A stretch of DNA of 64,000 nucleotides from assembly GCA_007859745.1 (NCBI GenBank), contig SMLU01000001.1, forward strand, positions 1,116,001-1,180,000, in the 5' to 3' direction. Numbering within the stretch: position 1 is the stretch's first letter; every line of letters begins with the position of its first letter. A program made the position numbers and the translations under genes. Positions 11,311 to 46,184 of the stretch are shown in pieces. The notes beneath the pieces are model-generated. The model made no database searches, was not told where the DNA came from, and saw only the letters and a list, made by a program, of their open reading frames with translations. The DNA comes from Phycisphaerae bacterium RAS1. GTDB lineage: Bacteria; Planctomycetota; Phycisphaerae; UBA1845; Fen-1342.

Positions 11311-11341
11311 GCGGCAGTTTTCCTTGCTGTAGGATGCGAGA

Positions 11342-18767: not shown

Positions 18768-18898
18768 GGTCAACCCTTCATACATGGAGGCGGTAAGCAA
18801 TTCTCGCCGCACTTGTTTCGATGCGCTGCCCGGTCAGTTCCTTCCGAGCGCACCGGTCTTTTCCAACAATTGCGACCGGCGCGGCGCAGACCGGAGCC

Positions 18899-24939: not shown

Positions 24940-25121
24940 TTCTCTGCTCCTACGATTCCCGAAAACGGGCCATCCGCGACGGCACCAAGACCCAGCCCCG
25001 TTTCCGATGCTCTGCAATATATACCAAGCAGGTGTTTGGCCTGTCAAACAAACGGCACAAGCGCGTAACGCGAGCACCTCGGACCCGCGTAGCGGCCGTC
25101 GTTCACGCCCGGGACTGTCGA

Positions 25122-26594: not shown

Positions 26595-26825
26595 ATATCA
26601 CCGTGCTGGGTTAGTCGGGTTTCGGCCTGCGACGCCGTTCCACTTGTTAGACGCCGTGTGGCGCTCGCCGCTTCCGGGTCGGCCGGACATTCCCATCCGG
26701 TCGGGAAGAAAGACGCTCTCCAGCGCATCCAACTGTCAGACCGTGACGCGATCGACGCGACTCGGACGTCCGGGTCGCCGAGAGCACTGGCGCGTCAGGC
26801 AGCGAGACCGGAGCGGAGATCATCC

Positions 26826-27140
26826 ATGTCCCGAGGCGCGACAATCCGAGAACAGCGAACAAGAACCGTGATCACGTGCGAAGCACCCGATGCCGCGCAA
26901 GTCCTGTTGGCGGGCAGCTTTAACGACTGGAAGCCCGAAGCGACGCCGATGAAGCGTCGGGCCAACGGCCAGTGGGAAGCAGCGCTGGAGCTGCCGCCGG
27001 GCCACTACGAGTACAAGTTCGTGGCCGACGGCACATGGTGCTGCGAACCCGGGCAGCGGGACGAGGGATGCGCATGCGTGCGCGAGGGCTACACACCGAA
27101 CGAGTGCGGAACACTGAACCGCGTTCTCGACGTGCGGTGA
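26826..27140 (+). CDS. CBM48/AMPK-type glycogen-binding domain protein
   Basis: The 104-residue product is almost only one domain. VLLAGSFNDWKP near residues 27-38 and HYEYKFVADGTW near 60-71 are the signature of the E-set carbohydrate domain found in AMPK beta and GlgB. The C-terminus has four Cys within 20 residues, not typical for the family. Start ATG 26826 has GCGGAG upstream; the long open frame further upstream is a shadow of the phosphatase gene. It may bind glycogen or act as an isoamylase-like module; no partner enzyme is adjacent. Confidence 0.78.
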   Translation: MSRGATIREQRTRTVITCEAPDAAQVLLAGSFNDWKPEATPMKRRANGQWEAALELPPGHYEYKFVADGTWCCEPGQRDEGCACVREGYTPNECGTLNRVLDVR

Positions 27141-27939: not shown

Positions 27940-29913
27940 ATGTCGAATGAAGGAACCGGAGCCCGACCGGCTGGAAAACCGTCGGTACTTAGGCGGGTTT
28001 GGTTGTTCATCGAGATTCTAAACGTCCGGCTTCGATTCATCTTCCTGATGGTCATCGTGGGGTTCGTGGTCGGCTACTGGGAGAACATCACCAATTACTA
28101 CGACCGCTGGCGGCGCCCGGCGCAGGCGGCCGACATGGTCGCCGCCCAGGACATCGAGTTCTACTGCCCGATGCACCCCAACATCATTCGCGCTGAGCCG
28201 GGCAACTGCCCGATCTGCGGAATGCCACTGGCGAAGCGCGCCAAGAGCGGGAAAGCGGAGCTGCCGGAGGGCGTGCTCGCACGACAACATCTCACGCCGC
28301 AGAAAGTGCAGATTGGCCGTATCGCGACGTCGCCGGTGGAGTACCGCTTGCTCAGCCGCGAGGTGCGCACGGTGGGCATCGTTGAGTACGACGAGACGCG
28401 GCGCAAGTTCATCGCCGCTCGGATCAAGGGCCGTATCGACAAGTTGTTCGTCAACTACGTCGGCCAGCACGTCGAGGCGGGCGACCCGCTGGTGTGGATT
28501 TACAGCCCGGAACTACTAACGGCACAGCAGGAACTCCTGACTGCGGCGACTCGACTCAACGAGATTTCAGGAGGGGATCAGTTCGCGGCGCGGACCAGTC
28601 AGTCGCTGCTCGAAGCCTCGAAGCAGAAGTTGCTGCTTTGGGGTATCACGCCTGAGCAAATCGAGACGATTCTGAAGCGTGGCACGACGGAAAACCACCT
28701 GACGATTTTCTCGCCGATCACGGGCTTCGTCACCGAGAAGAAAGTGCTTGAAGGCCATTATGTGGACGAAGGTGGCGACCTCTACACCGTCGCTGACCTG
28801 AGCAATGTCTGGATGCAGGCGAAGATTTTCGAAGATGAAAGTGGCGGCATCCACGTCGGCACGGCGGTCGAAGTCACCAGTACCGCCGATCCCGGGGAGG
28901 TGTTCGCTGGGCGGATCACGTTCATCGCCTACCAGGTCGATCCGGCCACGCGGACGGTCTCGGCCCGTGTCGAAATCGCCAATCCAGACCTGAAGCTCAA
29001 ACCGGGAATGTATGCACATGCGACCATTCGAGTGTCCGTCGGCCAGGTCTCCGAAATCGAGCCGCCTTCGGCTTCTGCACCCGCCACGGCTGAATCGGTA
29101 CGCGAGGCCCACGCCGAAACGGGCGAACTGATTCGTGCGTACCTCGCGCTTTCGGCGGCGTACGTTGCTGACAAGGCCGATCCGACTGCGCTCGCTGAGT
29201 TGGAAACAACAGCGAACGAGCTCGCAAAGCACGCGCACGGCACGATCGCGTCACAGGCGAAAGCAATCGCAGAAGAAGCGGCCAAGCTCAAGGGCAAGGA
29301 TCTGGCGGCGCAGCGCGGGCTCTTCAAGTCCGTAAACGCCAAGGTCATCGAGCTGCTTCGCGGCCAGCCGCCGGCCGGCCAAACGCTCTACGTGGCGTAC
29401 TGCCCGATGGTCGAGGCCGAGTGGGTCCAGAATTCGGAAGGCATCGCCAACCCATACATGGGGAGCGAAATGCCCAAGTGCGGCGTGCTCAGGGGAACGA
29501 TCGCCGCGAAGACGGTTCAGGAGCGGGAACAGTACGTGATGGGCTACTACTGTCCGATTTCGCCCGACCATCTGTTCGAGAAGCCCGAGCTGTGTCCGAT
29601 CGACAAGTTCCCGCTCAGATTCGTTCGCGCCGAAAAGATGCTGGCGGTTCCCGCGTCAGCGGTGATCAACACCGGTACGCGGAAGATCGTCTACCGCGAG
29701 AGTGAGCCGGGAACGTTCGACATGGTGGAGGTGAAGCTGGGCAAGCGCACTGGCGAATTCTATCCGGTGATCTCGGGGATCAACGCCAGCGATCGGGTCG
29801 CAACCGCCGGCGCCTTCCTGGTCGATGCGGAAAACCGGCTGAATCCGGCGGCCAGCGCCCAGTTCTTCGGCGCCAGCGGCGGTCCGCAGCAAGACGGCGG
29901 CCAAAACCACTGA
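27940..29913 (+). CDS. cusB: CusB-type RND adaptor with metal-binding domains
   Basis: Membrane fusion protein for metal efflux. After an N-terminal membrane helix (residues 30-48), a heavy-metal-binding domain is seen (EFYCPMHPNI near 70, CPICGMPLAK near 88). The adaptor core follows: IKGRIDKLFVNYVGQHVEAG near 165, a helical hairpin with Gln and Ala repeats, SPITGFVTEKKVLEGHYVDEG near 253 and AKIFEDE near 300. Late in the protein are two more Cys modules (AYCPMVEAEW near 487; YYCPISPDHL near 531 with CPIDKFPLRF), so it carries three potential sites. At 657 residues it is larger than E. coli CusB. It is followed 72 bases later by the CusA gene. Confidence 0.92.
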   Translation: MSNEGTGARPAGKPSVLRRVWLFIEILNVRLRFIFLMVIVGFVVGYWENITNYYDRWRRPAQAADMVAAQDIEFYCPMHPNIIRAEPGNCPICGMPLAKRAKSGKAELPEGVLARQHLTPQKVQIGRIATSPVEYRLLSREVRTVGIVEYDETRRKFIAARIKGRIDKLFVNYVGQHVEAGDPLVWIYSPELLTAQQELLTAATRLNEISGGDQFAARTSQSLLEASKQKLLLWGITPEQIETILKRGTTENHLTIFSPITGFVTEKKVLEGHYVDEGGDLYTVADLSNVWMQAKIFEDESGGIHVGTAVEVTSTADPGEVFAGRITFIAYQVDPATRTVSARVEIANPDLKLKPGMYAHATIRVSVGQVSEIEPPSASAPATAESVREAHAETGELIRAYLALSAAYVADKADPTALAELETTANELAKHAHGTIASQAKAIAEEAAKLKGKDLAAQRGLFKSVNAKVIELLRGQPPAGQTLYVAYCPMVEAEWVQNSEGIANPYMGSEMPKCGVLRGTIAAKTVQEREQYVMGYYCPISPDHLFEKPELCPIDKFPLRFVRAEKMLAVPASAVINTGTRKIVYRESEPGTFDMVEVKLGKRTGEFYPVISGINASDRVATAGAFLVDAENRLNPAASAQFFGASGGPQQDGGQNH

Positions 29914-29984: not shown

Positions 29985-32900
29985 ATGATTCCGCGCATCA
30001 TCGAATTCTGCATCCGCAATCGCTTCATCGTGATCCTGCTCACGGCCGCCGTGGCGGTCTGGGGCGTGTATTGCGTGATGAAGACGCCGATCGACGCGAT
30101 CCCCGACCTGTCTGAAAACCAGGTGATCGTCTTTACCGACTGGATGGGGCGTAGCCCGCAGGAAATTGACGACCAGATTACGTACCCGCTGTCGGTCAAT
30201 TTACAGGGCTTGGCGGGCGTGAAGTCGATCCGCTCGGCGAGCGAGTTCAACTTCTCGATGATCAACATCATCTTTGACGAGCACACCGACTTCTACTTCG
30301 CCCGCACGCGCGTGCTGGAGCGGCTGAATATCGCGAGCACGATTTTGCCGCCGGGCGTCGTCCCATACCTGGCGCCGGACGCAACCGCGCTCGGTCAGAT
30401 CTTCTGGTACACCGTCGAAGGCGACGGCTACAGCGTCGATGAGCTGCGCGCCATCCAGGACTGGTACGTTCGCTACCAGCTTTACGTGCCGGGCGTCGCG
30501 CAAGTCTCCAGCGTCGGCGGGTTCGTGCGTGAGTACCAGATCGACTTGGACCCAGACAAGCTGCGCGCCTATGACCTCTCGCTCGGCTCTGTGTTCAACG
30601 CCGTGGCCCGCAGCAACATCGCCGTGGGCGGGAAGGTCTACTTCGAAACCAACGCGGAATACCTGATCCGTGGCGTCGGTTGGCTGCGCGGCACGGACGA
30701 CCTCGAAAAAGTCATCGTTGCGGAGCGAAACGGCGTCCCGATCTACGTCCGCAACGTCGCATCCGTTCAACTCGGCCCGGAATATCGCCGCAGCATGCTC
30801 GAAAAGAATGGCGGTGAGGCCGTCGGCGGCGTGGTCATGATGCGGTTCGCTGAGAACCCGCTGACGGTCACCAAGGCGATCAAGCAGCGCATCGAACAGC
30901 TTCAGCCCGGTCTGCCGAAGGGCGTGCGGATCGTGCCCTTCTACGATCGCACACGCCTAATCGAGGGCGCGATACATACGCTCGTCGGAACGCTCAAAGA
31001 AGAAATCATCATTGCCAGCATCGCGATCCTGCTGATCCTGACGCACGTCCGCAGCGCCATCGTTGTTTGCAGCACTCTCCCGCTCGCGGTGCTGATCTCG
31101 TTCATCCTGATGTACTACCTGGGCATCCCCAGCAACATCATGTCGCTCTCGGGCATCGCGATTTCAATCGGAATCCTGGTCGACGCCGCCGTCGTCATGG
31201 TCGAGAACGCCACGCATGAGCTGACACGTCAATACGGCAAGGAGAAAGTGCGCGGCGATACGACCGAGGTCGTGGTCAAGGCCTGCCGGCTGGTTGGCAA
31301 GCCGATCTTCTTCGCCGTCATGATCATGCTGATCTCCTTCCTGCCGGTGTTCTCGCTCGGCGGGCAGGAAGGCAAGATGTTTCACCCGCTGGCGTTCACC
31401 AAGTCGTTCGCAATGGTCGGGGTGGCGATTCTGGCGATCACGTTCGTCCCGGCCATCATCCCAATCCTCATCAGAGGCCGTCTACGCAGCGAGGAAGAGA
31501 ATTGGATCGTCCGCAGCTTCATCCACATTTACAAGCCCGTCCTGACGTGGCTCATGCGCGTCCCGGCCGCCGGCATCTGGTTCGTCGGCTTCCTGTTTCT
31601 CATCGGCGCTGGCTTTGTCGGCAGCGACTTTCTGTTTCTGATCGTCCTGGCGCTGGCGTTGTTCTTCGGCACCGTGTTCTTCCGCCGCATTCCCAGCAAG
31701 GCGGTTGCGTTCTCGCTCCTGGCGGCGACGGCGCTGTGGTCGTGGAACTTCCCCAAGCTGGGGCGCGAGTTCATGCCGCCGCTGGATGAGGGCAGCATCC
31801 TGGACATGCCGGTGACGGTTCCGCGCGTGTCCGTCGCGCAGGCGGGCGACGACATCCGCGTCCGCGACGCCATCATGGGCGCCTTCCCCGAGGTGGACCA
31901 GGTCGTCGGAAAGGTCGGCCGCGCCGACACGCCCACCGATCCGTCCGGGATCGACATGGTCGAAACCGTCGTCACGCTTCGGCCGAAGGAGTGGTGGCCC
32001 AAGCGGAAGATCCAGTTCTCCGATGCACTGGCGGAAGCCAAGGAACTGCTCTCCGCGATGCAGTCGGCCGGGTTCGTGCGAACCGATTTGAAGCCCGACG
32101 AAGCCGACGGGCTGGTTAATGGTGCCACGATGGACGCAACGGTCGCATTTGATCGCACCATGCGCGACTTGGCGCTCCGGCGACAGAAGGAATATGAGCC
32201 GGTTCTGGCCAAGACGCTGGTCGCAGCCACGCTAAACGACCTGCTCACGCATCTTCGAAGCAAGCACGAGTTGCGTCGCGACCCGACCGCGGCAGAGACG
32301 GATCAACTGGCCGAGCAGCTCGTCAAAGACCACGGCTTGTTGCTCGTCCAGGTGCCTCGGCGTGAAGAAATGAGTAGTCTGCTCTCCGCCGCGATCGATC
32401 ACCTCGCCGCGCTCGGCGTAGTCGAAAAGAAACCGGACCTACTCCTGCTCCCGCAATCTTCGTGGTTGACGATCAAGGACGCGGTGACGACCGCGCTGGG
32501 CGCTGAGAAGGAATCGCTCATTGGGCAGCTTTTTGAGCGCTTCGACGCGCGGCTCAGTGATGAGTGGGTCAAGCGCGTCAAGGTATTGAACTGGGAGCTG
32601 GAGGACCACGCCGGCGGAAGCATGGTTTGGGTGCTGCTCGACGCACTTCGCAAGCACGCGGCCGAAAGCGGAGCGGAGGTCAAAGCGCCGAGCGACGATG
32701 ATCTGCGCCCCATCCGCGAGCAGAGCGAAAAGGCATTCGCAAAGAGCATCTTCTTGTGGCACAAGCTGAAGTCCGACCTGATCAAGGAAATGGACAGCGA
32801 GCTCCAGATGCCCGGATGGGGCAACATCTGGACGCAGCCCATCATCAACCGTGTCGACATGCTCGCGACCGGCGTTCGCACGATGATCGGCGTCAAGGTC

Positions 32901-34175
32901 TTCGGTCCGCGCCAGGAGGACACGACCGACGAAGTCATCGAGGATGGCGTCAAGAAACTCGTCATGCGCGAGCCGGGCATTCAGGGGATCGCCAACCAGA
33001 TCGCCGGCGTGATGCGCGGGATTCGCGGCGCCGTGGATGTGTTCCCCGACCAGATCGTCGGCCGCAGCTACCTTCAAATCGACATCAACCGCGAGAAGGC
33101 CGCCCGCTACGGCGTGAACGTGTCCGAGATCCAGGAGGCCATCGAAGTCGCGATGGGCGGCAAGACCATCACGGTCACGGTCGAAGGACGCCGGCGCTTC
33201 CCGGTCCGCGTTCGCTACGCGCGCGATTTCTGGCAGACCGAAGATGCCCTGCGCCGCATACTCGTCACCGGTCGGCGCGGCGTCGCGCCGGCACAATCCG
33301 GGGACGCCGCGATGGCCTCCGCGGCACCCGGCATGGGGACAGATGGCGGCGAGATGGCCGGCGGCGAGACCTATCAAATCCCGATTACGGAGGTCGCGGA
33401 CATCAAGGTCGTTGAGGGGCCGAGCGTAATCAAGAGCGAGAACGGCATGCTGCGGGCGTACGTCCAGCTCAACGTCCGCGACCGCGACATCGTCGGCTTC
33501 GTCGAGGAGGCTCAACAGGCGGTCGGGGAGACGGTGAAGCTGCCGGCCGGCTTCTTCATCGAATGGAGCGGACAGTTCGAGCACCAGATTCGGGCCAAGA
33601 AGACGCTCCAGGTCGTCTTCCCGATGGTGATCCTGCTCATCTTCGTGATCCTCTTCATGACGTTCAATGACGTTCGCGACGCGCTGCTCATCATCCTCGC
33701 GGTGCCCGGCGCGCTGGTCGGGGGCGTGATCTTCCAGAGCCTGTTTGGCTTCAACTTCAGCGTGGCCGTCTGGGTCGGCTACATCGCCTGCTTCGGCATG
33801 GCCACACAGACCGGCATCGTCATGCTGGTCTACCTGCACGACGCGATCAACACCCGCGGCGGGTTGTCCAAGATTGCGTCGTTGACGGAGCTGAGGGACG
33901 CGATCATCACCGGCGCCGTCCACCGCCTGCGTCCCAAGCTCATGACCGAGGGCGTGGCGATCGTCGGCCTTATGCCGATGCTGTGGGCCACGGGCGTTGG
34001 GGCGGAAGTGATGAGACCGATGGTCGCTCCCGTGATCGGCGGACTGCTCGTGGCGGACGAGGTCATCGACCTGCTGCTTCCGGTGATTTTCAACTGGTAC
34101 CAATCACGACGATGGCTACGTTTGCATGGCCACAGCGCTTCCAACCCAACGATGCCTGGCGTCGGCGTGGTCTGA
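29985..34175 (+). CDS. cusA: oversized CusA-type heavy-metal RND pump
   Basis: RND pump of the Cu/Ag subgroup. The N-terminal helix, the TPIDAIPDLSENQVIVFT start of the first loop and the proton-relay helix GILVDAAVVMVENATHEL (near 400) are conserved. With 1396 residues it is about 350 longer than E. coli CusA. The main extra part lies at residues about 675-930, just after VETVVTLRPKEWWP and before LIKEMDSELQMPGWG, a helical, charged insertion in the second periplasmic loop. Extra hydrophobic helices occur near 520-580, and a Gly/Met-rich loop lies near 1105-1130. It pairs with the CusB gene upstream. The insertion may contact the adaptor's extra metal modules, which is inference. Confidence 0.92.
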   Translation: MIPRIIEFCIRNRFIVILLTAAVAVWGVYCVMKTPIDAIPDLSENQVIVFTDWMGRSPQEIDDQITYPLSVNLQGLAGVKSIRSASEFNFSMINIIFDEHTDFYFARTRVLERLNIASTILPPGVVPYLAPDATALGQIFWYTVEGDGYSVDELRAIQDWYVRYQLYVPGVAQVSSVGGFVREYQIDLDPDKLRAYDLSLGSVFNAVARSNIAVGGKVYFETNAEYLIRGVGWLRGTDDLEKVIVAERNGVPIYVRNVASVQLGPEYRRSMLEKNGGEAVGGVVMMRFAENPLTVTKAIKQRIEQLQPGLPKGVRIVPFYDRTRLIEGAIHTLVGTLKEEIIIASIAILLILTHVRSAIVVCSTLPLAVLISFILMYYLGIPSNIMSLSGIAISIGILVDAAVVMVENATHELTRQYGKEKVRGDTTEVVVKACRLVGKPIFFAVMIMLISFLPVFSLGGQEGKMFHPLAFTKSFAMVGVAILAITFVPAIIPILIRGRLRSEEENWIVRSFIHIYKPVLTWLMRVPAAGIWFVGFLFLIGAGFVGSDFLFLIVLALALFFGTVFFRRIPSKAVAFSLLAATALWSWNFPKLGREFMPPLDEGSILDMPVTVPRVSVAQAGDDIRVRDAIMGAFPEVDQVVGKVGRADTPTDPSGIDMVETVVTLRPKEWWPKRKIQFSDALAEAKELLSAMQSAGFVRTDLKPDEADGLVNGATMDATVAFDRTMRDLALRRQKEYEPVLAKTLVAATLNDLLTHLRSKHELRRDPTAAETDQLAEQLVKDHGLLLVQVPRREEMSSLLSAAIDHLAALGVVEKKPDLLLLPQSSWLTIKDAVTTALGAEKESLIGQLFERFDARLSDEWVKRVKVLNWELEDHAGGSMVWVLLDALRKHAAESGAEVKAPSDDDLRPIREQSEKAFAKSIFLWHKLKSDLIKEMDSELQMPGWGNIWTQPIINRVDMLATGVRTMIGVKVFGPRQEDTTDEVIEDGVKKLVMREPGIQGIANQIAGVMRGIRGAVDVFPDQIVGRSYLQIDINREKAARYGVNVSEIQEAIEVAMGGKTITVTVEGRRRFPVRVRYARDFWQTEDALRRILVTGRRGVAPAQSGDAAMASAAPGMGTDGGEMAGGETYQIPITEVADIKVVEGPSVIKSENGMLRAYVQLNVRDRDIVGFVEEAQQAVGETVKLPAGFFIEWSGQFEHQIRAKKTLQVVFPMVILLIFVILFMTFNDVRDALLIILAVPGALVGGVIFQSLFGFNFSVAVWVGYIACFGMATQTGIVMLVYLHDAINTRGGLSKIASLTELRDAIITGAVHRLRPKLMTEGVAIVGLMPMLWATGVGAEVMRPMVAPVIGGLLVADEVIDLLLPVIFNWYQSRRWLRLHGHSASNPTMPGVGVV

Positions 34176-34601: not shown

Positions 34602-36341
34602 ATGGCTCACAAGTTGACGCGCCTTTTTTGGCTACTCCCGGTGCTGGTTTCGCCGCTTCCTGCTCAGCCCCCGTTGGACGCGATTCCTGCCGGACCTGCG
34701 ATCTCGCTCGGAATCATCCGTGGCACGGTGGCCGTTGGCGCGAGTCCCGTGAGCAACGCGCGCGTAATGGTCTTTGTGCCTTCATTGGCCTATTTTCGTG
34801 AGGCCCGCACGAACGCGATCGGCCGGTACGCGATCAAAGGCGTGCCTTCGGGCGCTTATCGCCTTGGCGTGGCGGCGCGCGACTTCGACTATCAGGAAAT
34901 CGCAATTGAGATTTCGGGTGGCATACTGCAACGCGAGTTCACTCTCGCGCCGGAAACCGAACCGGGGCGCTGGGACGTCATCGGGAACACTGCGGGCGAG
35001 TTCTTCGACGCCAGCGACATCGGCATCCTGCTTGCCGACGGGCGGATCATGTACTGCCACGACACGATCACGCCTGTGATCTTCGACCCCGCGACCGGTC
35101 AGTCGTTCGTAGCGGCCGGATCGGACCTGCCACAGGGGTGCATGAACATCATGCTGCTGCCCGACGGACGCCCGATTTTCGTAGGTGGGCAGCCCGGCAG
35201 CGACCCTGGTCAGTTTCGCAATGCCGTGCGATATGTGAAAGCATACAACCCCGTCGCCGACACATGGGAGCGATTCGCCGATCTGCTCAACCCCACCGGG
35301 CGCTGGTACCCCGGCATGGCGCGCCTGGCTGACGGATCGCTACTAGCGATGGGCGGCGGCACGCGGCCAAACGCGGTTCGCACCGCCACGTGTGAACGGC
35401 TCAACCTCGCGACGATGACGTGGTCGTGGACCGGTTCGATGATCAACCCGTCGGAGTTTTCGCCGTGCGCGCTGCTCTACACCGGTGAAGTGCTGGCGAC
35501 GTGGAATCCGCCACAGCTCTACAACCCGACGACCGGAGAATGGAGGCTGACCGGCGCCTTCAACCAGCCGGTGCGCGGCTGGCCCGACCACTCCGACCAC
35601 TCGCTCATCGTGCTCGCGGACGGACGTGCCGCGGCCATCGGAATCGACCGTGCGAACGGCGGCGCCTATACGGTCATGAGCGAGATTTACGACCCGGCGA
35701 CGGAATCATGGTCGCTCGGTAGCAGCCCAGCGCTCCTGCGCGAGAAGTCGGAGGTCGTGCCGCTCCCCGACGGGCGCGTGCTCGTCGCGGCCGGGGACAC
35801 CGAGCTCGCCAACCCCGGCGTGCCGCACGTCAACGGCGTGGTGAAATGGACTGACTTGTATGAGCCCGCGACCGGTGTGTGGCGACGTATGGCCGACATG
35901 GGGCAGTTCCGTGAATACCACGCGGTAACCTTGCTGGTTCCTGACGGCCGCGTGCTGACCACCGGCGGCACCGTCATCGACTTCGGGAACCCGCCCAACT
36001 CGGCCGACGTGGAGGCATTCAGCCCGCCATACCTGTTCCGCGGCGTCCGTCCACAGATCGCGAATCTGTCTGACGCGGTCGTTGACCGCGGAAGCAATTT
36101 GACGCTGACCATCGTCCCAGCGATCCGACTTACCAGTGCGGTTCTCGTGGGGACGCAGGCGACCACTCATTGGGTGGACGCCGGTATTCCGCGCCGCGTC
36201 GTGCTGTCCGTGCAACAGTCTGGTGCCAATGCGAGCGTGACGCTGCCGACAGATCCGAATGTCCTGCCACTCGGGCACTACATGCTCTTCGCGATGGTGG
36301 ACGACAGTCCCTCGGTCGCGCGCATGATCGAGGTCCGCTGA
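34602..36341 (+). CDS. galactose-oxidase-like copper radical oxidase
   Basis: A signal peptide (residues 1-22) is followed by a small carboxypeptidase-regulatory-like beta domain (35-115), a kelch propeller and a C-terminal E-set domain (DUF1929). All five residues of a galactose/glyoxal oxidase copper site can be assigned: Cys180 (QGCMN), Tyr236 (RWYPG), Tyr439 and His440 (REYHAV) and His523 (TTHWVD). So a Cys-Tyr radical cofactor and oxidation of an alcohol or aldehyde with H2O2 production are likely. Repeated LADGR or LPDGR turns mark the kelch blades. AGGAGG precedes ATG 34602. It lies downstream of the CusBA genes, which fits a copper enzyme, but the substrate is unknown. Confidence 0.86.
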   Translation: MAHKLTRLFWLLPVLVSPLPAQPPLDAIPAGPAISLGIIRGTVAVGASPVSNARVMVFVPSLAYFREARTNAIGRYAIKGVPSGAYRLGVAARDFDYQEIAIEISGGILQREFTLAPETEPGRWDVIGNTAGEFFDASDIGILLADGRIMYCHDTITPVIFDPATGQSFVAAGSDLPQGCMNIMLLPDGRPIFVGGQPGSDPGQFRNAVRYVKAYNPVADTWERFADLLNPTGRWYPGMARLADGSLLAMGGGTRPNAVRTATCERLNLATMTWSWTGSMINPSEFSPCALLYTGEVLATWNPPQLYNPTTGEWRLTGAFNQPVRGWPDHSDHSLIVLADGRAAAIGIDRANGGAYTVMSEIYDPATESWSLGSSPALLREKSEVVPLPDGRVLVAAGDTELANPGVPHVNGVVKWTDLYEPATGVWRRMADMGQFREYHAVTLLVPDGRVLTTGGTVIDFGNPPNSADVEAFSPPYLFRGVRPQIANLSDAVVDRGSNLTLTIVPAIRLTSAVLVGTQATTHWVDAGIPRRVVLSVQQSGANASVTLPTDPNVLPLGHYMLFAMVDDSPSVARMIEVR

Positions 36342-36530: not shown

Positions 36531-36657
36531 GTCGTCACGTGGAAGCCACTCGTTTTCAACTGTTCACGCACTTGTCAGCCACTTGTAAACCTCGTTTCGA
36601 CCCAGAAAATGCGGTGTAACCACCGCTGGGATAATGGTTTGCAAGCGGACGATCGAT

Positions 36658-36816
36658 TTCCCAAGCTGGACGTCGTGGGTTCGAATCCCATCGCCCGCTT
36701 TGATATAGTCCCATAGCCGATCGCGACTTGCGAACCGGCCCGCGTTGGGCTGTGCGGCTCGGGAAGCTCGAAAACGAGGGTAATTTACCCCCGACGTGCT
36801 TCCAGGAGCCGGCCAT
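36658..36816 (+). repeat. att-A: tRNA-Gly(CCC) 3' part plus integrase leader
   Basis: The first 50 bases read as the 3' part of tRNA-Gly(CCC): anticodon loop TTCCCAA, stem side GCTGG, T arm with TTCGAAT and acceptor side CGCCCGC plus T. The following 109 bases are a leader also found at att-C (55290-55448); by eye about nine of 159 positions differ between the two. At att-A the integrase start codon is changed (ATT instead of ATG) and the gene is gone. The 5' part of the tRNA is not present upstream, so this is an attachment-site remnant, not a working tRNA. Confidence 0.75.
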
Positions 36817-36953: not shown

Positions 36954-37271
36954 TCAAACGGCCGTCGATGCACCTCCCGTGTTAGGGCTAACAGGCTCCG
37001 AATTCCACTTCGCCGGCGTGTCCGGGCAGGCCGCCTCGGCCCGCCACAGGTAGCCTGTGCACCCGCTCACGCACGCCCCCAGCAGATCGCACACCAGCGC
37101 CCCGGCCACACCTGAGCTGCGGTCACACTCCAGGCACAGCGCCTCGCGCGCCCGATAGGCTGCGAGCCCCACACGCCCCACGCGCGTCGGCGACACGTGC
37201 ACCGGCGCTGGGGCCGGCGGCGGCCGCGAAGCGCCAACAACAAACAGCGATTGATTCGAGTAGGGATTCAC
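36954..37271 (-). CDS. small Cys-rich protein of the tail-like module
   Basis: The GTG start (37271) overlaps the stop of the larger upstream gene by 4 bases (GTGA), the coupling typical for phage genes. The 105-residue product has about ten Cys, mostly in residues 46-82 (CLECD, CDLLGACVSGC), and a Pro/Val-rich N-terminal part. No family is recognised. The open frame extending further upstream to 37484 is in a shadow of the neighbouring gene and is not used. Confidence 0.55.
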   Translation of the reverse strand: MNPYSNQSLFVVGASRPPPAPAPVHVSPTRVGRVGLAAYRAREALCLECDRSSGVAGALVCDLLGACVSGCTGYLWRAEAACPDTPAKWNSEPVSPNTGGASTAV

Positions 37272-38704
37272 GGCCTCACCCGATCGCGCACCACGATCCC
37301 GCACAAGGGCACGACGAAGTAATCCAGCATCGACACCGTCGTCTCGCACTCCCCCGTCCCGCGGTAAGCCACCTGCTGCCCCGGAATGCAATCGGGCGGA
37401 ACGATGTCCGGCCGGCAGCAGCGCGGCTGGAACGGCCCGCCGCAGTCTGGTGGATTGGCACAGCGCGCCCTGCGCCGATAACACTCACAGCGCGCATCGC
37501 CGCCGATCAGTTCGTCGCACGGATCAGGCGGCTGCACGCCAGGCGGCGGATCGTCCGGCGGCTGGGGCGGCGGAATATCCGGGTCCGGATTCGGCGGCGG
37601 CCCGTCATCATCGTCATCGCAGACGCACGTCGTCTGCTCGATGATCCGCGTCTCGTGCGTCGACGCCTGCGGCGCAGCATCAGCCGACGACTCATAAGTC
37701 GCCGACACGCCGCCCACGCCGTCGCCAAAGACCGCGGCAGGTTGGTCGGCCACATAGGCCGTGTTCTGGTATCCGATCTCCGCGATCGTCGTCGTCGGCA
37801 GATGGTCATATCGATTCGCTGCGCACTGAAACGTCCCCAGCGGGCAGTCCCCGAGTGATACAAGCACCGGATTCACTTCGCCCACCCGGCTCTCTGACCG
37901 CGTCGGCACATCAATGACTACCCAGCAGTACAGCGGCGGCGCGCCTCCGCCCGGCGGAAAAAGATGCTCCGCGTCCCAACTGTCCTCCGCGGCGAAAGCC
38001 ACGCGCCCGAAATACACCCGTGCCGTCCCGACCCATTGCACGTGCGTCAGCCATTCGGCCAGCGTGCTTGGGAATTCGCCCTCCACGCTCACCGCCCACG
38101 GCGCGTGCCAGGTCGCGTCATCCCACGTGCCGCTCTGCCACTCGCCCAGGTCGCTCCCGCACGGCGGCCACTCGTGGTAGCACAGGGTCTGCACGAAGCA
38201 GTAGTAAAACGTGAAGGGCGGCGGCGGCGGCGTGTAGCACTGCACGTCGCCACAGTTGACCAACGGCAAGCGCTCCCAGATTTTCGGCAGGACGCCGATG
38301 TCGAATTCTTCCCACGCATACGCGCTGTCCGCGCCCCAAGCCTGCCCCGGCGGGAGCTGAATCGGCGGCGTCTGCGGCGGCGCCCCGCGCACAAACCGAA
38401 AGGTCCGCTGCCCGCCCAGGTATTGAATCGGGAAGCTCGTCTGCGGCACAAACCAGTGCGCCGAGTTCTCGTCGCCGCTGTAGCGGTGCACCTGCACGTA
38501 GTGGGGCGGCAGATTGATATCGACGATGTTGGCGACGTCCGCCCGGCGATGCCGCCCCGGCAGCGTCACGCCGCCGCCAATATCAATGTAGTCCACGCAC
38601 GCCGGGCAGCACGCCGCGCTCCCGTCGGCGACCCCCTGGCCGCCGTCGGCCGTCGTCATCACGACGCGCCCGCCATCCGCTCCCAGCACGCGCTCGCCGC
38701 TCAT
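37268..38704 (-). CDS. Cys/Pro-rich virion-like protein
   Basis: A 478-residue product starting at ATG 38704, which overlaps the previous gene by 4 bases (ATGA). It begins with a Gly-rich segment with CCPAC near residue 33. The middle part is rich in Trp and aromatic residues and the Pro-rich linker near residues 375-400 has DDDDDGPPPNPDPDIPPP. About ten Cys are in the last 85 residues. The position next to tail-fibre-like genes suggests an accessory surface protein of a phage-like particle. No named family. Confidence 0.6.
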   Translation of the reverse strand: MSGERVLGADGGRVVMTTADGGQGVADGSAACCPACVDYIDIGGGVTLPGRHRRADVANIVDINLPPHYVQVHRYSGDENSAHWFVPQTSFPIQYLGGQRTFRFVRGAPPQTPPIQLPPGQAWGADSAYAWEEFDIGVLPKIWERLPLVNCGDVQCYTPPPPPFTFYYCFVQTLCYHEWPPCGSDLGEWQSGTWDDATWHAPWAVSVEGEFPSTLAEWLTHVQWVGTARVYFGRVAFAAEDSWDAEHLFPPGGGAPPLYCWVVIDVPTRSESRVGEVNPVLVSLGDCPLGTFQCAANRYDHLPTTTIAEIGYQNTAYVADQPAAVFGDGVGGVSATYESSADAAPQASTHETRIIEQTTCVCDDDDDGPPPNPDPDIPPPQPPDDPPPGVQPPDPCDELIGGDARCECYRRRARCANPPDCGGPFQPRCCRPDIVPPDCIPGQQVAYRGTGECETTVSMLDYFVVPLCGIVVRDRVRP

Positions 38705-39144
38705 GCGCCCGCCCCCTGTGTGCACGGCGTGACCGCCTCAATCTCGCCATAGGCCTGCAGCAGCACCGCCACGGGATCAGGAATGCTCTGGGTCGCCGGC
38801 GGCTGATACACCAGGGCAAGGCTCCCCAGCGGCGCCGCCACATAGCGCCCCACGGCCGTGCGCGCCCTGGCCGGCGTCGCCCCAGCCAGGATGCGCCCGC
38901 TCACGTCGCCGTTGATCGTGCTCCCCACGCGCCACACGTCATACACGAAGCCGCACGCCGTCACCTGCGAGCCTTCGTTCCCGGCCACGTTGCCGATCAC
39001 CGCCACATAGAGCTGCAAGGCGGCCGCCTGCCCGGCGCTCGCTGGTTGCAGCGGCACATCGTCCGCCCGCTCCATCCAGCGGATCGAATCCAGCACGGAG
39101 CGTTGATTGGCCACAAAACGCGACAGGGTTTCTGGATTCCACAT
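38701..39144 (-). CDS. hypothetical protein of the tail-like module
   Basis: 147 residues from ATG 39144. The sequence is Ala-rich and looks like a compact alpha/beta protein with two Cys, with no recognised family. It is packed between neighbours with a 4-base overlap downstream and a 1-base gap upstream, so it belongs to the same phage-like operon. Confidence 0.6.
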   Translation of the reverse strand: MWNPETLSRFVANQRSVLDSIRWMERADDVPLQPASAGQAAALQLYVAVIGNVAGNEGSQVTACGFVYDVWRVGSTINGDVSGRILAGATPARARTAVGRYVAAPLGSLALVYQPPATQSIPDPVAVLLQAYGEIEAVTPCTQGAGA

Positions 39145-39145
39145 G

Positions 39146-39808
39146 CTACGCACCCTCCGCGATCAAGCCGACGATCGCCGGTGGCGCGCCGCCTGGCGCG
39201 TGCACGAACGGACAATGGCTTTTCTCGACGACCGAGTAGCTTCCCGATGGGCACAGCCCGATCCGCGGAATCAGGCTGAGGACGCCGCCCGCCGTCACCG
39301 CCCGCACGCTGTAGTGTCGCACTTCATCGGCGCTCAGCGCCGCCCCCACCCAGCGAAACACTCTCTGCCCCTCGTAGTAGGGCGCCTCCGCCACGGCCGA
39401 CGCGAAGCTGATTTCATCGTCTCCGGCGGCCGCGTAGATGCGGAAGGCCGCCGGCCGCGCCTGCTCGCCCGCCGCGGAGTAGGCCCACGTCAACATCGGC
39501 CGATTGCCGGAGAGGAGCTGCGCGTCCAGCCCGCTCGGCGTCGCCGGCATCAGCCCGACCAGCGCCCCGCCCGCGTAGACGCGCGTGACAATCTCCAGTG
39601 GATCAATCGCCGCCCGCTTCCCGCCGGCCGTTTCCGCCACCACGGCGTAGTGATAAATCGCGTCGCCCGCGTGCGGCGTTCCGCCATCCTCCGCGATCGT
39701 CGTCGCGTCGGCCGCGGCCGTTCCGACTTCATCGGCCGGGCGCGCCGCAGACGGCAGCGGCAGCCGCTCACCTTCCCATCGCAACAGAATGTGTCCCGCG
39801 CTGGGCAT
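39146..39808 (-). CDS. hypothetical structural protein of the tail-like module
   Basis: 220 residues with two fibronectin-like or beta-sandwich-like stretches (IYHYAVVAETAGGKRAA near 51-67; VRHYSVRAVTAGGVLS near 161-176). Such repeats are common in phage tail proteins that reach outside. It is directly upstream of the short genes at the end of the operon and 4 bases downstream of the fibre-like gene. No named family. Confidence 0.62.
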   Translation of the reverse strand: MPSAGHILLRWEGERLPLPSAARPADEVGTAAADATTIAEDGGTPHAGDAIYHYAVVAETAGGKRAAIDPLEIVTRVYAGGALVGLMPATPSGLDAQLLSGNRPMLTWAYSAAGEQARPAAFRIYAAAGDDEISFASAVAEAPYYEGQRVFRWVGAALSADEVRHYSVRAVTAGGVLSLIPRIGLCPSGSYSVVEKSHCPFVHAPGGAPPAIVGLIAEGA

Positions 39809-39812
39809 CGAT

Positions 39813-41075
39813 CTATGCCTTCACGAAAACGCCGACCACCTGGCAGTTGTAGTGCCGCCCGCCGCGCGTGCTCCGCAGTCCGACGTACACGGTGCCATTC
39901 ACGCCGGCGTGAGACAGTGCAACGTCAATCGATCCGCCCGAGTCGGCCCGGTAGCGAGCCTCCTTGTTGCTGGTGACCCAGTTCGCAAATGTCCCAGCGC
40001 TGGGCGTGTTCGACAGCGTCGCCGTAGCGTGCGTCGCCGCCAGCGCCGCGTCCGCGTACACGCCCACCTCGATCAGGTCGTCATCCGCCAGCGCAGCGCC
40101 GGCCAGGTCCTTCAGCCGCACCTGCACCGTCTTGGTGTCGTCCGCCGACGACAGGCTGTTCACGGTGGCGTAGGGCACGTCGCCCTGCACGGCCGCCGAC
40201 AGCTTCGCCGCGGTGACACCGCCGTCCTTCACGCGCAGCGCGTCGCTGTTGATCTCCACCGTCGCACTGTCCACGTTCACGACCAGCGCGCCGCTGGAGT
40301 GCGACAGGCCGTCGCCGGCGACGGCCGCCGCCACCTTGGCCGCACCGTTGCTGTCCACCATCGTTGTGCCGCTGATCTTCAGTGCCAGCGCATTGATCGT
40401 CGCCAGCGTCAGCGCCGTGTCCTTCGCCAAGAAATCAAACAGCTCGCTGGCTTCGGTCCAGCGCATGTACCATTTCTCGCCCGCGCCGCCTGTCCCGCGG
40501 TTGCCCTTCACTCCGGATGTCGCCGCCGGCGCCCCCGCGTTGTCCTGGTCAAGGACGAACGTCGTCGCGTCCGTCCCGCTCACCGCCGCACCGCTCGCCA
40601 CCAGCCAGCATTTCAGCAGATTCGAGTAGTCGCGGATCTCCGTCACGACGCCGGAGGCCGCGATCACCCGGCAGATCGGCACAAACGTATGCGGCGTGCC
40701 CGGCCAGGCAGCGCCCTTCGCCAGCCCGTTCGTGGCCGTGTCGATCCATACGTAGCGCGTCGCGTTGTCATCCGCCGCAAACGAAGCGCTGCCCGCGAAC
40801 CACACGTCGCTGTTGTCGCTCTTGCGATACGCCCCGGGATTGACGGCGATGTTCAACCCGCTGACGTGCTCTGCCCGGAGCTGCATCAGGAACGCCCACA
40901 TGCGCTCGAACAAGAGCTGCATCTCGCGCAGCCGCTGGGCGCGGTTCGTCGTCGCGGTCTTCGGCGTCAGGCTGTAATCGTCGAACACCTGCCCGCCGGC
41001 GTGCGTTGCGCCGCTCCTGCCTTCGGCTGTGGTGTTGTCCAGCTTGGCTGGCGTATAGGCGATCGTGTCCGGCAT
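39813..41075 (-). CDS. tail-fibre-like phage protein
   Basis: A 420-residue product with features of phage tail fibre or baseplate proteins. It starts with a short N-terminal part including LREMQLLFERMWAFLMQ, a region with FVPICRVIAASGVVTEIRD and, from about residue 200, long low-complexity beta repeats with Ala, Gly and Asp (ALKISGTTMVDSNGAAKVAA; AVAGDGLSHSSGALVVNVD). The end contains SIDVALSHAGVNGTVYVGL. Its start overlaps the stop of the gene upstream. The best guess is a host-recognition fibre of a phage-like particle. Confidence 0.65.
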   Translation of the reverse strand: MPDTIAYTPAKLDNTTAEGRSGATHAGGQVFDDYSLTPKTATTNRAQRLREMQLLFERMWAFLMQLRAEHVSGLNIAVNPGAYRKSDNSDVWFAGSASFAADDNATRYVWIDTATNGLAKGAAWPGTPHTFVPICRVIAASGVVTEIRDYSNLLKCWLVASGAAVSGTDATTFVLDQDNAGAPAATSGVKGNRGTGGAGEKWYMRWTEASELFDFLAKDTALTLATINALALKISGTTMVDSNGAAKVAAAVAGDGLSHSSGALVVNVDSATVEINSDALRVKDGGVTAAKLSAAVQGDVPYATVNSLSSADDTKTVQVRLKDLAGAALADDDLIEVGVYADAALAATHATATLSNTPSAGTFANWVTSNKEARYRADSGGSIDVALSHAGVNGTVYVGLRSTRGGRHYNCQVVGVFVKA

Positions 41076-41464
41076 TACTCAAAACCTCCTGGCGTGAACG
41101 TGAACCCCAGCACGCCGCCCGCGCCGGCGGCCGCCACCGCCCGCACGTTCCGCGCGCCGAACGGCTCGCTGTCCACGCTGATTTCGGTCCACTCCGTCGG
41201 CTCGGTCGCCGCGCCCGTCTCCGCGTCGATCGTTCGCGCGCCGAATCGCTTGACGCCGTAAACGTAGGGCCGCGTCCGCAGCGGGATGGCCGAGAATTCG
41301 CCCGGCGATCGCTCCGGGTTGTCGGCCGCGGCCAGCTCTCCGGCCGTGATCCGCACCCGCCCGCCAGGCTCCGCGCCGTGCGTCTGCTCCACCAGCTCGA
41401 CAATTGTGCCGGCCGCAGTCTGCTGCGTCGGCACCCAGATCACTAGCTCTTGGGGCACGCGCAC
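41075..41464 (-). CDS. hypothetical protein of the tail-like module
   Basis: 129 residues without a recognised family. The sequence starts MRVPQELVIWVP and looks like a small beta-rich protein. Stop and next start overlap (TAATG type), so it is co-translated with the fibre-like gene. Likely a small structural part of the particle. Confidence 0.6.
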   Translation of the reverse strand: MRVPQELVIWVPTQQTAAGTIVELVEQTHGAEPGGRVRITAGELAAADNPERSPGEFSAIPLRTRPYVYGVKRFGARTIDAETGAATEPTEWTEISVDSEPFGARNVRAVAAAGAGGVLGFTFTPGGFE

Positions 41465-41490
41465 GACTCCACTGTGGTTCGCATTTGCAT

Positions 41491-44094
41491 TTACCCTCTC
41501 ACGCTCACCCGGAAATTCGGGTCTTCCAGTTGCAATGTCGTCCCGATCGCCGCCCCCTGTCCCTCGGCGCCCTGGCTGTACGTGTACGTCACGCCCGCCA
41601 CGATCGCCCCGCTGTCTTCCCGATTGGCCCGTAATGGCACGTCGAACGGCCTTCGATCGTTTCCCTCCTCAGCCTTCAGCATCGTGACCAGGTCGCCCGG
41701 CCGATAGCCCTCCGGCGCCGGCTGCGGAGTTCCGCCGCCGTCATCCGACATGCGCGTCTGCCCGAAAACCAGTTCCGGCAGGCTGAACGTGCCCACGTGC
41801 CGCACCCGGTCCAGGCGCCGCACGAGCTGCACCGCGTGCGCCTGCGCCGCCCCATGGTCCAGCCGCTGCTCGGTCGGCAGCGGCCGCCCCTTGAACTGGC
41901 TGTTCCCGCCCGTGAACCCGGCCACGAACCCCGGCGGATTATCGTCCCGGAAATTACAATGCAGGTCCTCGCGCCGCACCACCAGCAGGCTCCGCTCCCG
42001 CGCGCTCAGCGACCCGTCCGCGATCGAGATCGGCAGCGTGTCCAGCGCCGCGTCGCCCGTCAGCCCCGCCGTCACGCGCACGCGCAGCTTGCCGCGGATG
42101 TACGCCTCCGGGAACGTCATCACCGTCGACGGATCAACCGGCCGCTTGTCCGTGATGTCGCGCAGGCTCTTGATGTCCACCAGCACCCGCGCGTCCCAGC
42201 GCATCACTTTCACGTCGCCCGCCACCTGGAACCACGACGACGCCGGCGTCGGGTTGACGCCGTTCGGATCGCCTGCGAACGACAGCTCGACGATCGGCGG
42301 CGACTCCTGTCCCTTGGCGTCCTGCGTCACGCGCGGCTCAAACGGCCGCGGGATCGGCGCCGTCTGGCCGCGTTGATAAAAGTCGCCTTCGTCCGCTCGA
42401 AACATCTCTCCCGCCAGCACGTCCGCCAGGTCGAACAGCCGGTACTGGTCCGCCGCGTCCCCCTCCGGCACGAACGGATAGCCTTTGAACGGCCCATATT
42501 GCCGCCCCAACCCGCGCAGCGCTCCGTGCGTGTTCAGCGCCCACAGCCGCCCCACGAGCTGGTACTGGCTGTCGGGCCCGCCGAATCGGAAGTCCGCCCC
42601 TTCGCTGGAGTATCGCGAATAAAACTGCCCGCCCACGATGTTCGACGCGTCCACCGCCGTCTGCACCTGCCCCGCGTTGCTCACGTCCACGTCCCAGTTG
42701 TCGTCGATCTTCCACGCCGGCAGCAGCTCCACCGTCACCTCGTATTTGAAGCCCGCGCCCACCTCGCGCACGCTGTTGTTGCAGCGCTCGTAGTCCACCC
42801 CCACGTCGAAGGCGTTCACGTTGGCTTGTGCCCGCACCGCCGACCAGGTCTTGTCATTCGTGCGAAAGTGCGGCGACGCCTGCGCCAAGGTCAACCGCCG
42901 CGTGTCCGGCGCGTCCGGCAGAAAGAAGCGCAGCCCCCACATCACTTCGTTGCCGATCGCCCGCGGCTCCCAGCAGTAGCCGATCCCCGCCGACATGCAC
43001 ACGTAGTCCAGGGCGTCCAGCCAGCTCAGCCGCTCCAGCACCAGCGAGTTGGGCTTCGCCAATAGCGCCCGCTCCCAGGCGTTCGAGAGCGCCGTCCCCG
43101 CCGCCTCCGGCTCGATCAGCAGCAGGTTGCTCCGCGTCTGCCCCTCGCCCACCGGCCGCGCTTCGTCCGCCGCGTCTCCCTCGCCGCTGATGATCGACAT
43201 CAGATTCCAATCGTGCAACCGGTGCAGCGTCATGTGCGGCTCGATCGTCGGCTGCCCGTCGCCGTCCACCGCTCCTTCCGTCCAGCGCGCCCAGAACAGC
43301 AGCCATGCCAGCAGCCGTGCGTAGCTCCAACTCCTGCTTTCCGCCGTCCGCGCCCCCCAGAACAGCGGCACGCGCAGCTTGATATCGGAGAGCAGCGGCG
43401 ACCAGGCGATCCCGGCGTCATGGCTCGCGTTCGTGAACTTCGCAAGCCGCGCCCAGCAGTTCCCATTCCCGAACGGATTGAACACGCACACCTGCGACAG
43501 CGCTGTCTTCAGCTCCGGGTTGAAGATGTCCCCCGCGCCGGGGTTCTCGGCCAGCGTCTTATTGCGGATCCACGTCTGCCCGACCAGCTTGTAGCGCGCC
43601 TCCTTGTCCAGCACGTCCGCCACGTGCACCAGCGCGATCGCCGCCTGGTAGCCCGCCGCGCCGTTTCGCCGCACGCCGCGCACGAAGCCGCGCATCAGCT
43701 CAAAGTCCTGCTCCGGGCTTTCCCGCGCTGTGCGGACTCGCACGACGCTGTCGTCCGCCAGCGCCTCGTGCAGCGGCTGGTAGGAGGGCGCCGCCTCCGT
43801 TCCGTTGTTCACCAGGAACCCGCCGCCCTGGGCCGTGTCGTCATGCCACAGTTCCGCGGCCGACAGCCGCACAGCCAGCTCCGCGTTCGGCAGGCTGTTG
43901 ACCCGATGCGCCACGCCCAGCGCCTGCCCCAGCCAGCCGATCGTCCGCGGGTTTCCCGGCTGCCCCGGCGGCGGCATCAGCTCGACCACGATCGGATCGA
44001 CCAGCGTCGGATCGGAGCGCAGCTCCGTCCCGCCGACGCCCGTCGTCAGCCGCGCGTCTTCCGTCGTCCCGGTCTGTCCCGTCAGCGTCGCCAT
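41491..44094 (-). CDS. large tail/baseplate-like structural protein
   Basis: 867 residues from ATG 44094 (GTG/ATG upstream starts are possible). The protein has an N-terminal part resembling phage baseplate or tail-associated proteins that assemble several beta domains, Trp-rich central parts (residues 230-300) and a long C-terminal beta region. No specific domain can be named. It is the largest gene of the module, directly followed by fibre-like genes, the place where baseplate or tail-tip genes sit in phage tail operons. Confidence 0.6.
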   Translation of the reverse strand: MATLTGQTGTTEDARLTTGVGGTELRSDPTLVDPIVVELMPPPGQPGNPRTIGWLGQALGVAHRVNSLPNAELAVRLSAAELWHDDTAQGGGFLVNNGTEAAPSYQPLHEALADDSVVRVRTARESPEQDFELMRGFVRGVRRNGAAGYQAAIALVHVADVLDKEARYKLVGQTWIRNKTLAENPGAGDIFNPELKTALSQVCVFNPFGNGNCWARLAKFTNASHDAGIAWSPLLSDIKLRVPLFWGARTAESRSWSYARLLAWLLFWARWTEGAVDGDGQPTIEPHMTLHRLHDWNLMSIISGEGDAADEARPVGEGQTRSNLLLIEPEAAGTALSNAWERALLAKPNSLVLERLSWLDALDYVCMSAGIGYCWEPRAIGNEVMWGLRFFLPDAPDTRRLTLAQASPHFRTNDKTWSAVRAQANVNAFDVGVDYERCNNSVREVGAGFKYEVTVELLPAWKIDDNWDVDVSNAGQVQTAVDASNIVGGQFYSRYSSEGADFRFGGPDSQYQLVGRLWALNTHGALRGLGRQYGPFKGYPFVPEGDAADQYRLFDLADVLAGEMFRADEGDFYQRGQTAPIPRPFEPRVTQDAKGQESPPIVELSFAGDPNGVNPTPASSWFQVAGDVKVMRWDARVLVDIKSLRDITDKRPVDPSTVMTFPEAYIRGKLRVRVTAGLTGDAALDTLPISIADGSLSARERSLLVVRREDLHCNFRDDNPPGFVAGFTGGNSQFKGRPLPTEQRLDHGAAQAHAVQLVRRLDRVRHVGTFSLPELVFGQTRMSDDGGGTPQPAPEGYRPGDLVTMLKAEEGNDRRPFDVPLRANREDSGAIVAGVTYTYSQGAEGQGAAIGTTLQLEDPNFRVSVRG

Positions 44095-44121
44095 CGTCAC
44101 TCTCATCCACAATGCAAAACA

Positions 44122-44262
44122 ACCACGGAGTCACGGAGACACGGAGAAATCAGTAGTCGCATTCGTCGTCGTCGAAGCACGGTCCACACATCACGTACTC
44201 TCTGTGCCTCTGTGCCTCTGTGGTTCGCATTAGTCTTCTCCGTGTCTCCGTGACTCCGTGGT
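44122..44262. repeat. long perfect inverted repeat with CACGGAG words
   Basis: 27 bases at 44122-44148 are the exact reverse complement of 44236-44262. They are built of the word CACGGAG repeated at about nine-base steps. Between them lies a related run of GTGCCTCT words. The hairpin sits in the only gap of the tail-like module (between the large baseplate-like gene and the next gene). Similar CACGGAG/CACAGAG intergenic repeats are widespread in environmental bacteria, including planctomycetes. Confidence 0.7.
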
Positions 44263-44266
44263 CGTT

Positions 44267-44695
44267 CTAGCTCGGTTGCATCCACGTCAGGTTCAGCGTC
44301 GCATCCCAGAGCCATTGCCCGCCGCCGCCGCCCACCAAGCACGGGCTGTCCGCCGCCGGCGTCCAGCTTCGCAGCTCGCAATGCTCGAAGTTCCGTCCGT
44401 TCTCGTCGTGGTAGATGAACCGCGGCCCGCCCCGTCGATAACTGTTCAGCTTGCCCTCGAATAGCCCGATGGCCGCCAGGTTGACGAACTCCGCCAGCAC
44501 GCGCAGCGTGATCGCCACCGGGTCATCCCCGAAGAACACCGACCCCTGCCCGCTCAGCCCCGGCAGCGTGTAGCCCATCCGCCGCGCCGGCCGCTCCCCG
44601 ACGTGCGTGTCCAGGGTGAAGCGCAGGATGTCGACGCCGTTGCTGTCCAGCACCAGCGTCTCCAGTGTTCCTGCCGGCGGCTCGAACGACGCCAT
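44267..44695 (-). CDS. hypothetical phage structural protein
   Basis: 142 residues, starting MASFEPPAGTLETLVLDSNG, with an alternating beta pattern and a GGGGGQWLWD segment near 123-132. It follows the tape-measure-like gene with no gap. In many tail operons, small distal-tail or tail-completion proteins follow the tape measure, so that role is possible; no family is recognised. Confidence 0.55.
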   Translation of the reverse strand: MASFEPPAGTLETLVLDSNGVDILRFTLDTHVGERPARRMGYTLPGLSGQGSVFFGDDPVAITLRVLAEFVNLAAIGLFEGKLNSYRRGGPRFIYHDENGRNFEHCELRSWTPAADSPCLVGGGGGQWLWDATLNLTWMQPS

Positions 44696-45982: not shown

Positions 45983-46051
45983 TGCTCAGCTTTCAGTCAT
46001 CAACTCGCTACTCGCTACTCGCCTCCGAAGGATGGCGAGTTCAAAGTCACC

Positions 46052-46183
46052 ATGGAACACCCGAGTGCGGGGAAGCCGCGCCCGCTGACCATCACGATTG
46101 ACGAACGCAAGGCGACGGTCAAGAAAGAGTCGGTGACCGCTACCGCAGCCGCCGTGAGCGTGCGGGCGCCACGGGCCGGATAG
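46052..46183 (+). CDS. 43-residue ubiquitin-like peptide (candidate)
   Basis: A short open frame whose stop TAG (46181-46183) lies one base before the GTG start of the E2-E1-JAB gene. The product reads like the first beta hairpin of the multiubiquitin-type Ubl family (PLTITIDERKATVKKESVT, residues 11-29) and then ends early, with a terminal Gly. Full-length Ubl domains have about 75 residues, so this is either a truncated Ubl, a shortened form, or a chance frame. No strong ribosome site was seen. The coupling to the enzyme gene is the main support. Confidence 0.4.
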   Translation: MEHPSAGKPRPLTITIDERKATVKKESVTATAAAVSVRAPRAG

Positions 46184-46184
46184 G

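Follow-up and report, generated by a model that had tools for sequence, protein, structure and literature searches.

A predicted copper radical oxidase of a distinct clade, encoded among copper-resistance genes in Phycisphaerae bacterium RAS1

What kind of enzyme is encoded directly behind a copper exporter in Phycisphaerae bacterium RAS1, and what does it have to do with copper? The gene lies at positions 34602-36341 (forward strand) of the window, the 64,000-nucleotide stretch of contig SMLU01000001.1 that was analyzed here and to which all coordinates refer. An earlier sequence-only reading had proposed a copper radical oxidase, likened it to GlxA of Streptomyces and suggested that the exporter supplies its copper. 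To our knowledge, roles have been assigned to few copper radical oxidases of bacteria. Excerpts of earlier work assign GlxA and FbfB to development and surface glycans (PMC4736821, PMC3543389), and in Frankia and some Burkholderia the gene for the copper chaperone Sco is described as having galactose-oxidase-like genes as neighbors (excerpts of PMC4736821). No link of such oxidases to copper-resistance clusters appeared in the titles and abstract openings of the matches listed from open-access full-text literature, which includes few subscription journals or preprints.

The open reading frame runs from an ATG start to a TGA stop and encodes 579 amino acids. By eye, the N-terminus MAHKLTRLFWLLPVLVSPLPAQ resembles a Sec-type signal peptide (putatively residues 1-22, positions 34602-34667; pLDDT of 32 over residues 1-20 in the model described below), and on that judgment the oxidase is probably exported. 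Pfam placed a CarboxypepD_reg domain at residues 39-105 (34716-34916; pLDDT 92-97 over residues 41-110), Kelch repeats within a propeller spanning approximately residues 119-480 (34956-36041; also seen in the model, boundaries by inspection) and a galactose oxidase (GO)-like E-set domain at residues 483-578 (36048-36335; GO-like_E_set, E = 2.4e-15) that holds the predicted copper ligand H523. The N-terminal domain had been read as carboxypeptidase-like and as unusual. It is indeed present, as the “carboxypeptidase regulatory-like” domain that is distinct from a peptidase, but it was found in all 10 relatives scanned (one of them under the cut-off) and is therefore the usual architecture of the clade to which the window oxidase belongs. 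A phmmer search of the PDB with the window protein returned a Colletotrichum copper oxidase, GlxA and galactose oxidases as top matches.

To compare active sites, the protein was aligned with Fusarium GO (in an entry that has S at position 383) in a single unconstrained MAFFT alignment. All five first-shell residues were matched: C180 (35139-35141) to C228, the thioether partner; Y236, in the W235-Y236 pair (35304-35309), to the cofactor tyrosine Y272; Y439 and H440 (35916-35921) to the copper ligands Y495 and H496; and H523 (36168-36170) to the copper ligand H581 (all forward strand). The claim that the complete set is present thus held, and each of the five is retained in 21 of 21 family members. 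Loss of the cysteine or a tyrosine in relatives, named beforehand as the observation that would speak against the assignment, was looked for in these 21 proteins and not seen. The structure prediction proposed at the outset was also carried out. A first AlphaFold job, built on eight sequences, modeled the active site poorly (pLDDT 59.3) and was superseded by a second built on 11 sequences (mean pLDDT 81.9, pTM 0.85). Best structural matches of this second model (VIA-align) were 25 entries, all copper radical oxidases, with Z of 38.4-42.5 over 408-440 residues, and the next match had Z of 24.4; the matched rows mostly span residues 118-579, so that the N-terminal domain was barely probed by structure. 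The kelch propeller and E-set domain that characterize copper radical oxidases were therefore found by Pfam, in the model and among the structural matches, and the characteristic first shell of Cys, Tyr, Tyr, His and His stands at homologous positions. Chance is excluded as the source of this match of residues, domains and fold, and identification of the window protein as a copper radical oxidase, as the earlier reading had it, is well supported by predicted fold and aligned first shell.

Differences among the known enzymes bear on which type of oxidase this might be. Both the AA5_2 galactose oxidase (PDB 1gof) and the Pseudoarthrobacter galactose oxidase (9g43) share the five residues and the fold (best match, Z of 42.5), but GO has G271 where the window protein has W235, and the glycine before the cofactor tyrosine that is a feature of AA5_2 is thus absent. 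Instead, W235 immediately precedes Y236 within an RWYP motif that is common to GlxA. According to excerpts of PMC13094651, the stacking W290 of GO is supplied by another region of the chain, whereas in FgrAldOx (a fungal AA5_1 aldehyde/glyoxal oxidase; PDB 9n3u) the second-shell W509 adjoins the cofactor Y510, and W288 of GlxA occupies the place of FgrAldOx W509, flipped relative to GO W290. FgrAldOx resembles the window protein in this placement of Trp immediately before the cofactor Tyr and in fold (Z of 38.4), but its own N-terminal domain is WSC rather than CarboxypepD_reg (excerpts of PMC13094651). Since the W235-Y236 arrangement is shared with both GlxA and FgrAldOx, analogy of Trp placement favors an oxidase of the aldehyde-oxidase type. 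With the glyoxal oxidase profile PF07250 the window protein scored 15.3 bits, below the cut-off of 37.5, which was reached by one of 10 relatives (the Haliscomenobacter protein, 39.7 bits).

Close relatives of the window protein are 57-61% identical to it, with one at 87% (genome G023), and come from Planctomycetota and one Armatimonadota genome (G492). Among 101 genomes (its own and 100 relatives), matches at E < 1e-200 were found in 14, its own included. In a wide draw of the phylum of the window, eight of 392 genomes had matches at E <= 1e-30, and five besides its own had matches at 1e-100 or better. Across 251 Armatimonadota genomes, G492 itself matched at E <= 1e-50 and none of the 250 others did. 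A more distant relative (38% identity), with the same N-terminal domain, is encoded on a plasmid of Haliscomenobacter hydrossis DSM 1100 (Bacteroidota); a plasmid search with this protein at E <= 1e-20 retrieved the protein itself and no other, and two matches on Cupriavidus plasmids have ∼30% identity. In a tree of 39 rows (arbitrarily rooted, several outside rows being long branches), 20 family members from Planctomycetota, the one Armatimonadota genome and the one Bacteroidota plasmid fell on one side of a branch with support of 100/100, to the exclusion of GO, GlxA and the GlxA-like paralogs that the tree contained. A further member, G332, had been omitted from the 20-row alignment owing to its 1540-amino-acid frame and was later found to have the same residues, which brings the family to 21. 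Within Planctomycetota, the closest grouping of the Armatimonadota copy is with the window protein (97/95), a nesting that suggests transfer; the N-terminal part of this copy lies in another frame, through either a frameshift or an assembly error.

Comparison with GlxA (PDB 4unm) was of particular importance, as the sequence-only reading had drawn on it for function. Likeness is considerable, comprising propeller and E-set domain, YH and TH motifs, RWYP and a Z of 42.0. However, the GlxA equivalog model NF052501 gave the window protein 121.3 bits against a cut-off of 800 (eight orthologs scored 116-138 bits), and GlxA falls outside the family clade, so orthology was ruled out by score and tree and the analogy proved weak. 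GlxA-like oxidases from the same Planctomycetota genomes have the five residues in 17 of 24 paralog rows aligned, but are ∼27-34% identical to the window protein, and those that the tree includes likewise fall outside the family clade. Judged from alignments and tree, the family is a separate, previously unrecognized clade of a known enzyme kind and does not consist of GlxA orthologs.

The immediate neighborhood of the gene is rich in metal-related functions. Directly upstream on the same strand are a CusB-type adaptor with HMBD (27940-29913; DUF3347 just under cut-off) and a CusA/CzcA-family RND pump of 1396 amino acids (29985-34175; TIGR00914, 986 bits, above the cut-off of 701). The pump has Met at the places of M573, M623 and M672 of Escherichia coli CusA, which we take to be the Cu(I) site of that protein. 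In the 426 bases between cusA and the oxidase gene no forward-strand terminator- or promoter-like site was found, the scans scoring no better than shuffles. A second heavy-metal RND cluster on the reverse strand (3920-13491) contains an outer-membrane factor, two HMBD proteins, a CusA-family pump, an HMA-MauE-like protein and an adaptor. On the forward strand, a YHS-domain protein (20431-21225) has relatives near several family members. A CbiX-like protein on the reverse strand (24082-25146), in which a lipobox-like motif and a His-rich loop (HEHHGHH) were identified by inspection, is a possible periplasmic metal chaperone; its relatives are found beside the oxidase in G059 (L044) and near it in G043 (L048). 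The only PF07732 multicopper oxidase match of the genome falls ∼0.4 kb beyond the left edge of the window, at a distance of 35 kb from the oxidase. The gene at 22755-24038 was considered as a partner and rejected, having no Pfam or NCBIfam match, chance-level PDB matches and a restriction-type appearance by eye. Left of cusBA, a frame at 26307-27140 has an AMPK1_CBM/CBM48 glycogen-binding domain, and a similar stretch occurs at L052 18080-18448.

While the place next to CusBA is thus real in the window, it is not kept in the 87% identical ortholog, where CusBA is not directly beside the oxidase and the distances to it are 6.7 kb for an RND gene, 3.9 kb for a P-type ATPase and 4.3 kb for a multicopper oxidase. 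In both this genome and the Armatimonadota genome, the only PF07732 match (E <= 1e-10) lies within 5 kb of the oxidase. Elsewhere, in G059, a single strand encodes CusB, an HMA-MauE protein, CusA, two HMBD proteins, an outer-membrane factor, a YHS protein and then the oxidase, which begins 26 bases past the YHS frame (reading frames taken mechanically). Copper or heavy-metal genes are found nearby in other orders in G058, G032, G043, G094, G012 and G023. On the Haliscomenobacter plasmid, 71 bases separate the start of the oxidase from a preceding copper-translocating P-type ATPase; a multicopper oxidase and two RND systems also lie upstream, and the oxidase ends this copper-resistance cluster. 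A Marinobacter plasmid relative had no copper genes among its listed neighbors and no marker match, and on the two Cupriavidus plasmids a scan with the query proteins showed the oxidase alone. Some loci carry two kinds of oxidase, a GlxA-like copy being located directly upstream of the family member in G053 (L056 1426-3069) and a GlxA-like copper radical oxidase ∼5 kb from it in G012 (L052 3832-5460).

To evaluate this context statistically, 10 marker proteins were used as tblastn queries against up to 20 kb of sequence surrounding 16 of the 21 family loci (four of the 16 gave 13-15 kb instead of ∼20 kb; G097, G078, G053, G120 and G396, each under 8 kb, were left out), and 40 random stretches of 19.9 kb from five of the genomes served as controls. 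Queries from the same genome were excluded, and the window therefore counts through its HMBD match only. At least one marker was present, within ∼10 kb of the oxidase, in 11 of 16 family loci compared with one of 40 random stretches (Fisher P = 3e-7 in a test that ignores shared ancestry), a result favored by the choice of the marker set after the neighborhoods of some family loci had been viewed. For G332, which counts among the 11 positives, the RND pump scored 350 bits, below the heavy-metal cut-off of 701. CusA, a multicopper oxidase or a copper ATPase was present in 10 of 16 loci (Fisher P = 2e-6, again ignoring shared ancestry). Around GlxA-like and other paralogs, markers were found in two of 15 stretches, and two more paralogs lie beside family members. 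The tie of the family to copper and heavy-metal resistance genes in genomes of three phyla was unexpected and is statistically clear. That close relatives so often lie among copper-resistance genes hints at a role in coping with copper, and the presence of the clade among such genes, once on a plasmid, offers a testable link of radical-copper chemistry to metal tolerance.

How this context relates to the enzyme is less simple than copper export supplying it. Cus-type exporters remove copper from the periplasm, which argues against that proposal as worded; co-regulation with copper resistance, or a function in it, fits as well as supply by export. On the whole we consider it probable that the window gene encodes an exported copper radical oxidase that acts on aldehydes or primary alcohols, belongs to a distinct clade and accompanies copper-resistance islands as an accessory; catalysis, substrate, copper supply and any part in resistance are what we infer. 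Once exported, the apo-protein would bind copper and oxidize itself to form the Tyr-Cys cofactor, and the mature enzyme would act on a primary alcohol or on the gem-diol form of a small aldehyde, oxidizing it while converting O2 to H2O2. Its usefulness would lie mainly where the periplasm meets high copper, with the copper there serving maturation, and under copper stress it may remove reactive aldehydes or alter glycans of the surface. In Streptomyces, GlxA is described as relying for its maturation on the copper chaperone Sco, except when copper is supplied (excerpts of PMC4736821); a periplasm rich in copper could thus do the same for the window oxidase.

Alternatively, the enzyme could primarily modify surface glycans in the manner of GlxA, and the nearby copper genes would reflect either that the enzyme requires copper or that both are carried together on metal islands. 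Precedent exists in GlxA itself (excerpts of PMC4736821 and PMC3543389), and while the window protein ends with its E-set domain, the differing C-terminal ends of relatives hint at surface display, with a dockerin above cut-off in L049 and, all below cut-off, a dockerin in L047, IPTL-CTERM in L054 and Por_Secre_tail in L069. Nonetheless, the family is not GlxA by either score or tree, and its observed context is copper resistance whereas that of GlxA is cslA; no CslA-like glycan synthase was found among the selected neighbors scanned with Pfam (a partial scan), and a glycosyltransferase (Glycos_transf_1, Glyco_transf_4) is located at 17325-18812 of the window. We regard a primary glycan role as possible but rather unlikely.

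Four further residues raise the question of whether the protein handles copper beyond its cofactor. C152-H153 (35055-35060, forward strand) ends a blade 1 strand of the model, and H330-x-x-H333 (35589-35600, forward strand) directly precedes strand 334-337, in blade 5 by inspection; all four are invariant in 21 of 21 family members. None occurs in GO or the Pseudoarthrobacter enzyme as aligned, and GlxA is without His at the H330 and H333 places (in a profile alignment covering those two places). In the 24 paralog rows from outside the family, one or two of the four residues occur in 11 rows, the full set in none and H330-x-x-H333 in none; the comparison covers the two galactose oxidases, these rows and GlxA at the two His places. 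In the model, C180, Y236 and H440 each stand two residues ahead of a strand (182-185, 238-241 and 442-445, respectively), and from these positions relative to strands the extra residues are probably located on the copper face. The two pairs could constitute a further metal site, with the protein acting on copper itself by oxidizing or sequestering Cu(I), much as a multicopper oxidase of resistance operons does, consistent with the multicopper oxidases and RND pumps that the islands also carry. Against this, the copper-face placement derives from the alignment and model strands, the extra residues could equally shape a substrate pocket, members of the set recur outside the family, and a protein that simply held copper would have no need of a full catalytic first shell, which together make a copper-handling protein unlikely in our judgment. 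With the aldehyde-oxidase-like placement of Trp and the four extra invariant Cys and His, members of the clade are candidate enzymes of an as yet uncharacterized type. A broader proposal from the same residues, that the clade serves bacterial copper resistance as a counterpart of multicopper oxidases, with periplasmic copper both maturing the enzyme and being handled by its oxidase chemistry at a second site formed by C-H and H-x-x-H, is speculative and we give it little credence.

Finally, the gene might be a passenger that came to lie on metal islands by chance and whose function is unrelated to copper stress, as five of 16 loci (G063, G056, G075, G417 and G103) lacked any marker over the sequence searched and gene order around the oxidase varies between loci, but the excess of marker-positive loci over random stretches in three phyla and in differing gene orders, including a plasmid cluster, renders this improbable.

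Downstream of the oxidase, a run of large proteins on the reverse strand (36954-46306) appears phage-tail-like by eye; of five proteins of the run scanned with PHROGs, one matched (a tail collar protein at 39816-41075), which falls short of showing a prophage. Between the oxidase and this run, positions 36630-36700 resemble the 3′ part of a tRNA-Gly gene, although ARAGORN calls no tRNA here. The 25-base 3′ end of the tRNA-Gly-like gene has four exact copies in the genome, at two of which ARAGORN identifies an intact tRNA-Gly (CCC and TCC), and the fragment may represent the edge of an insertion next to the copper island.
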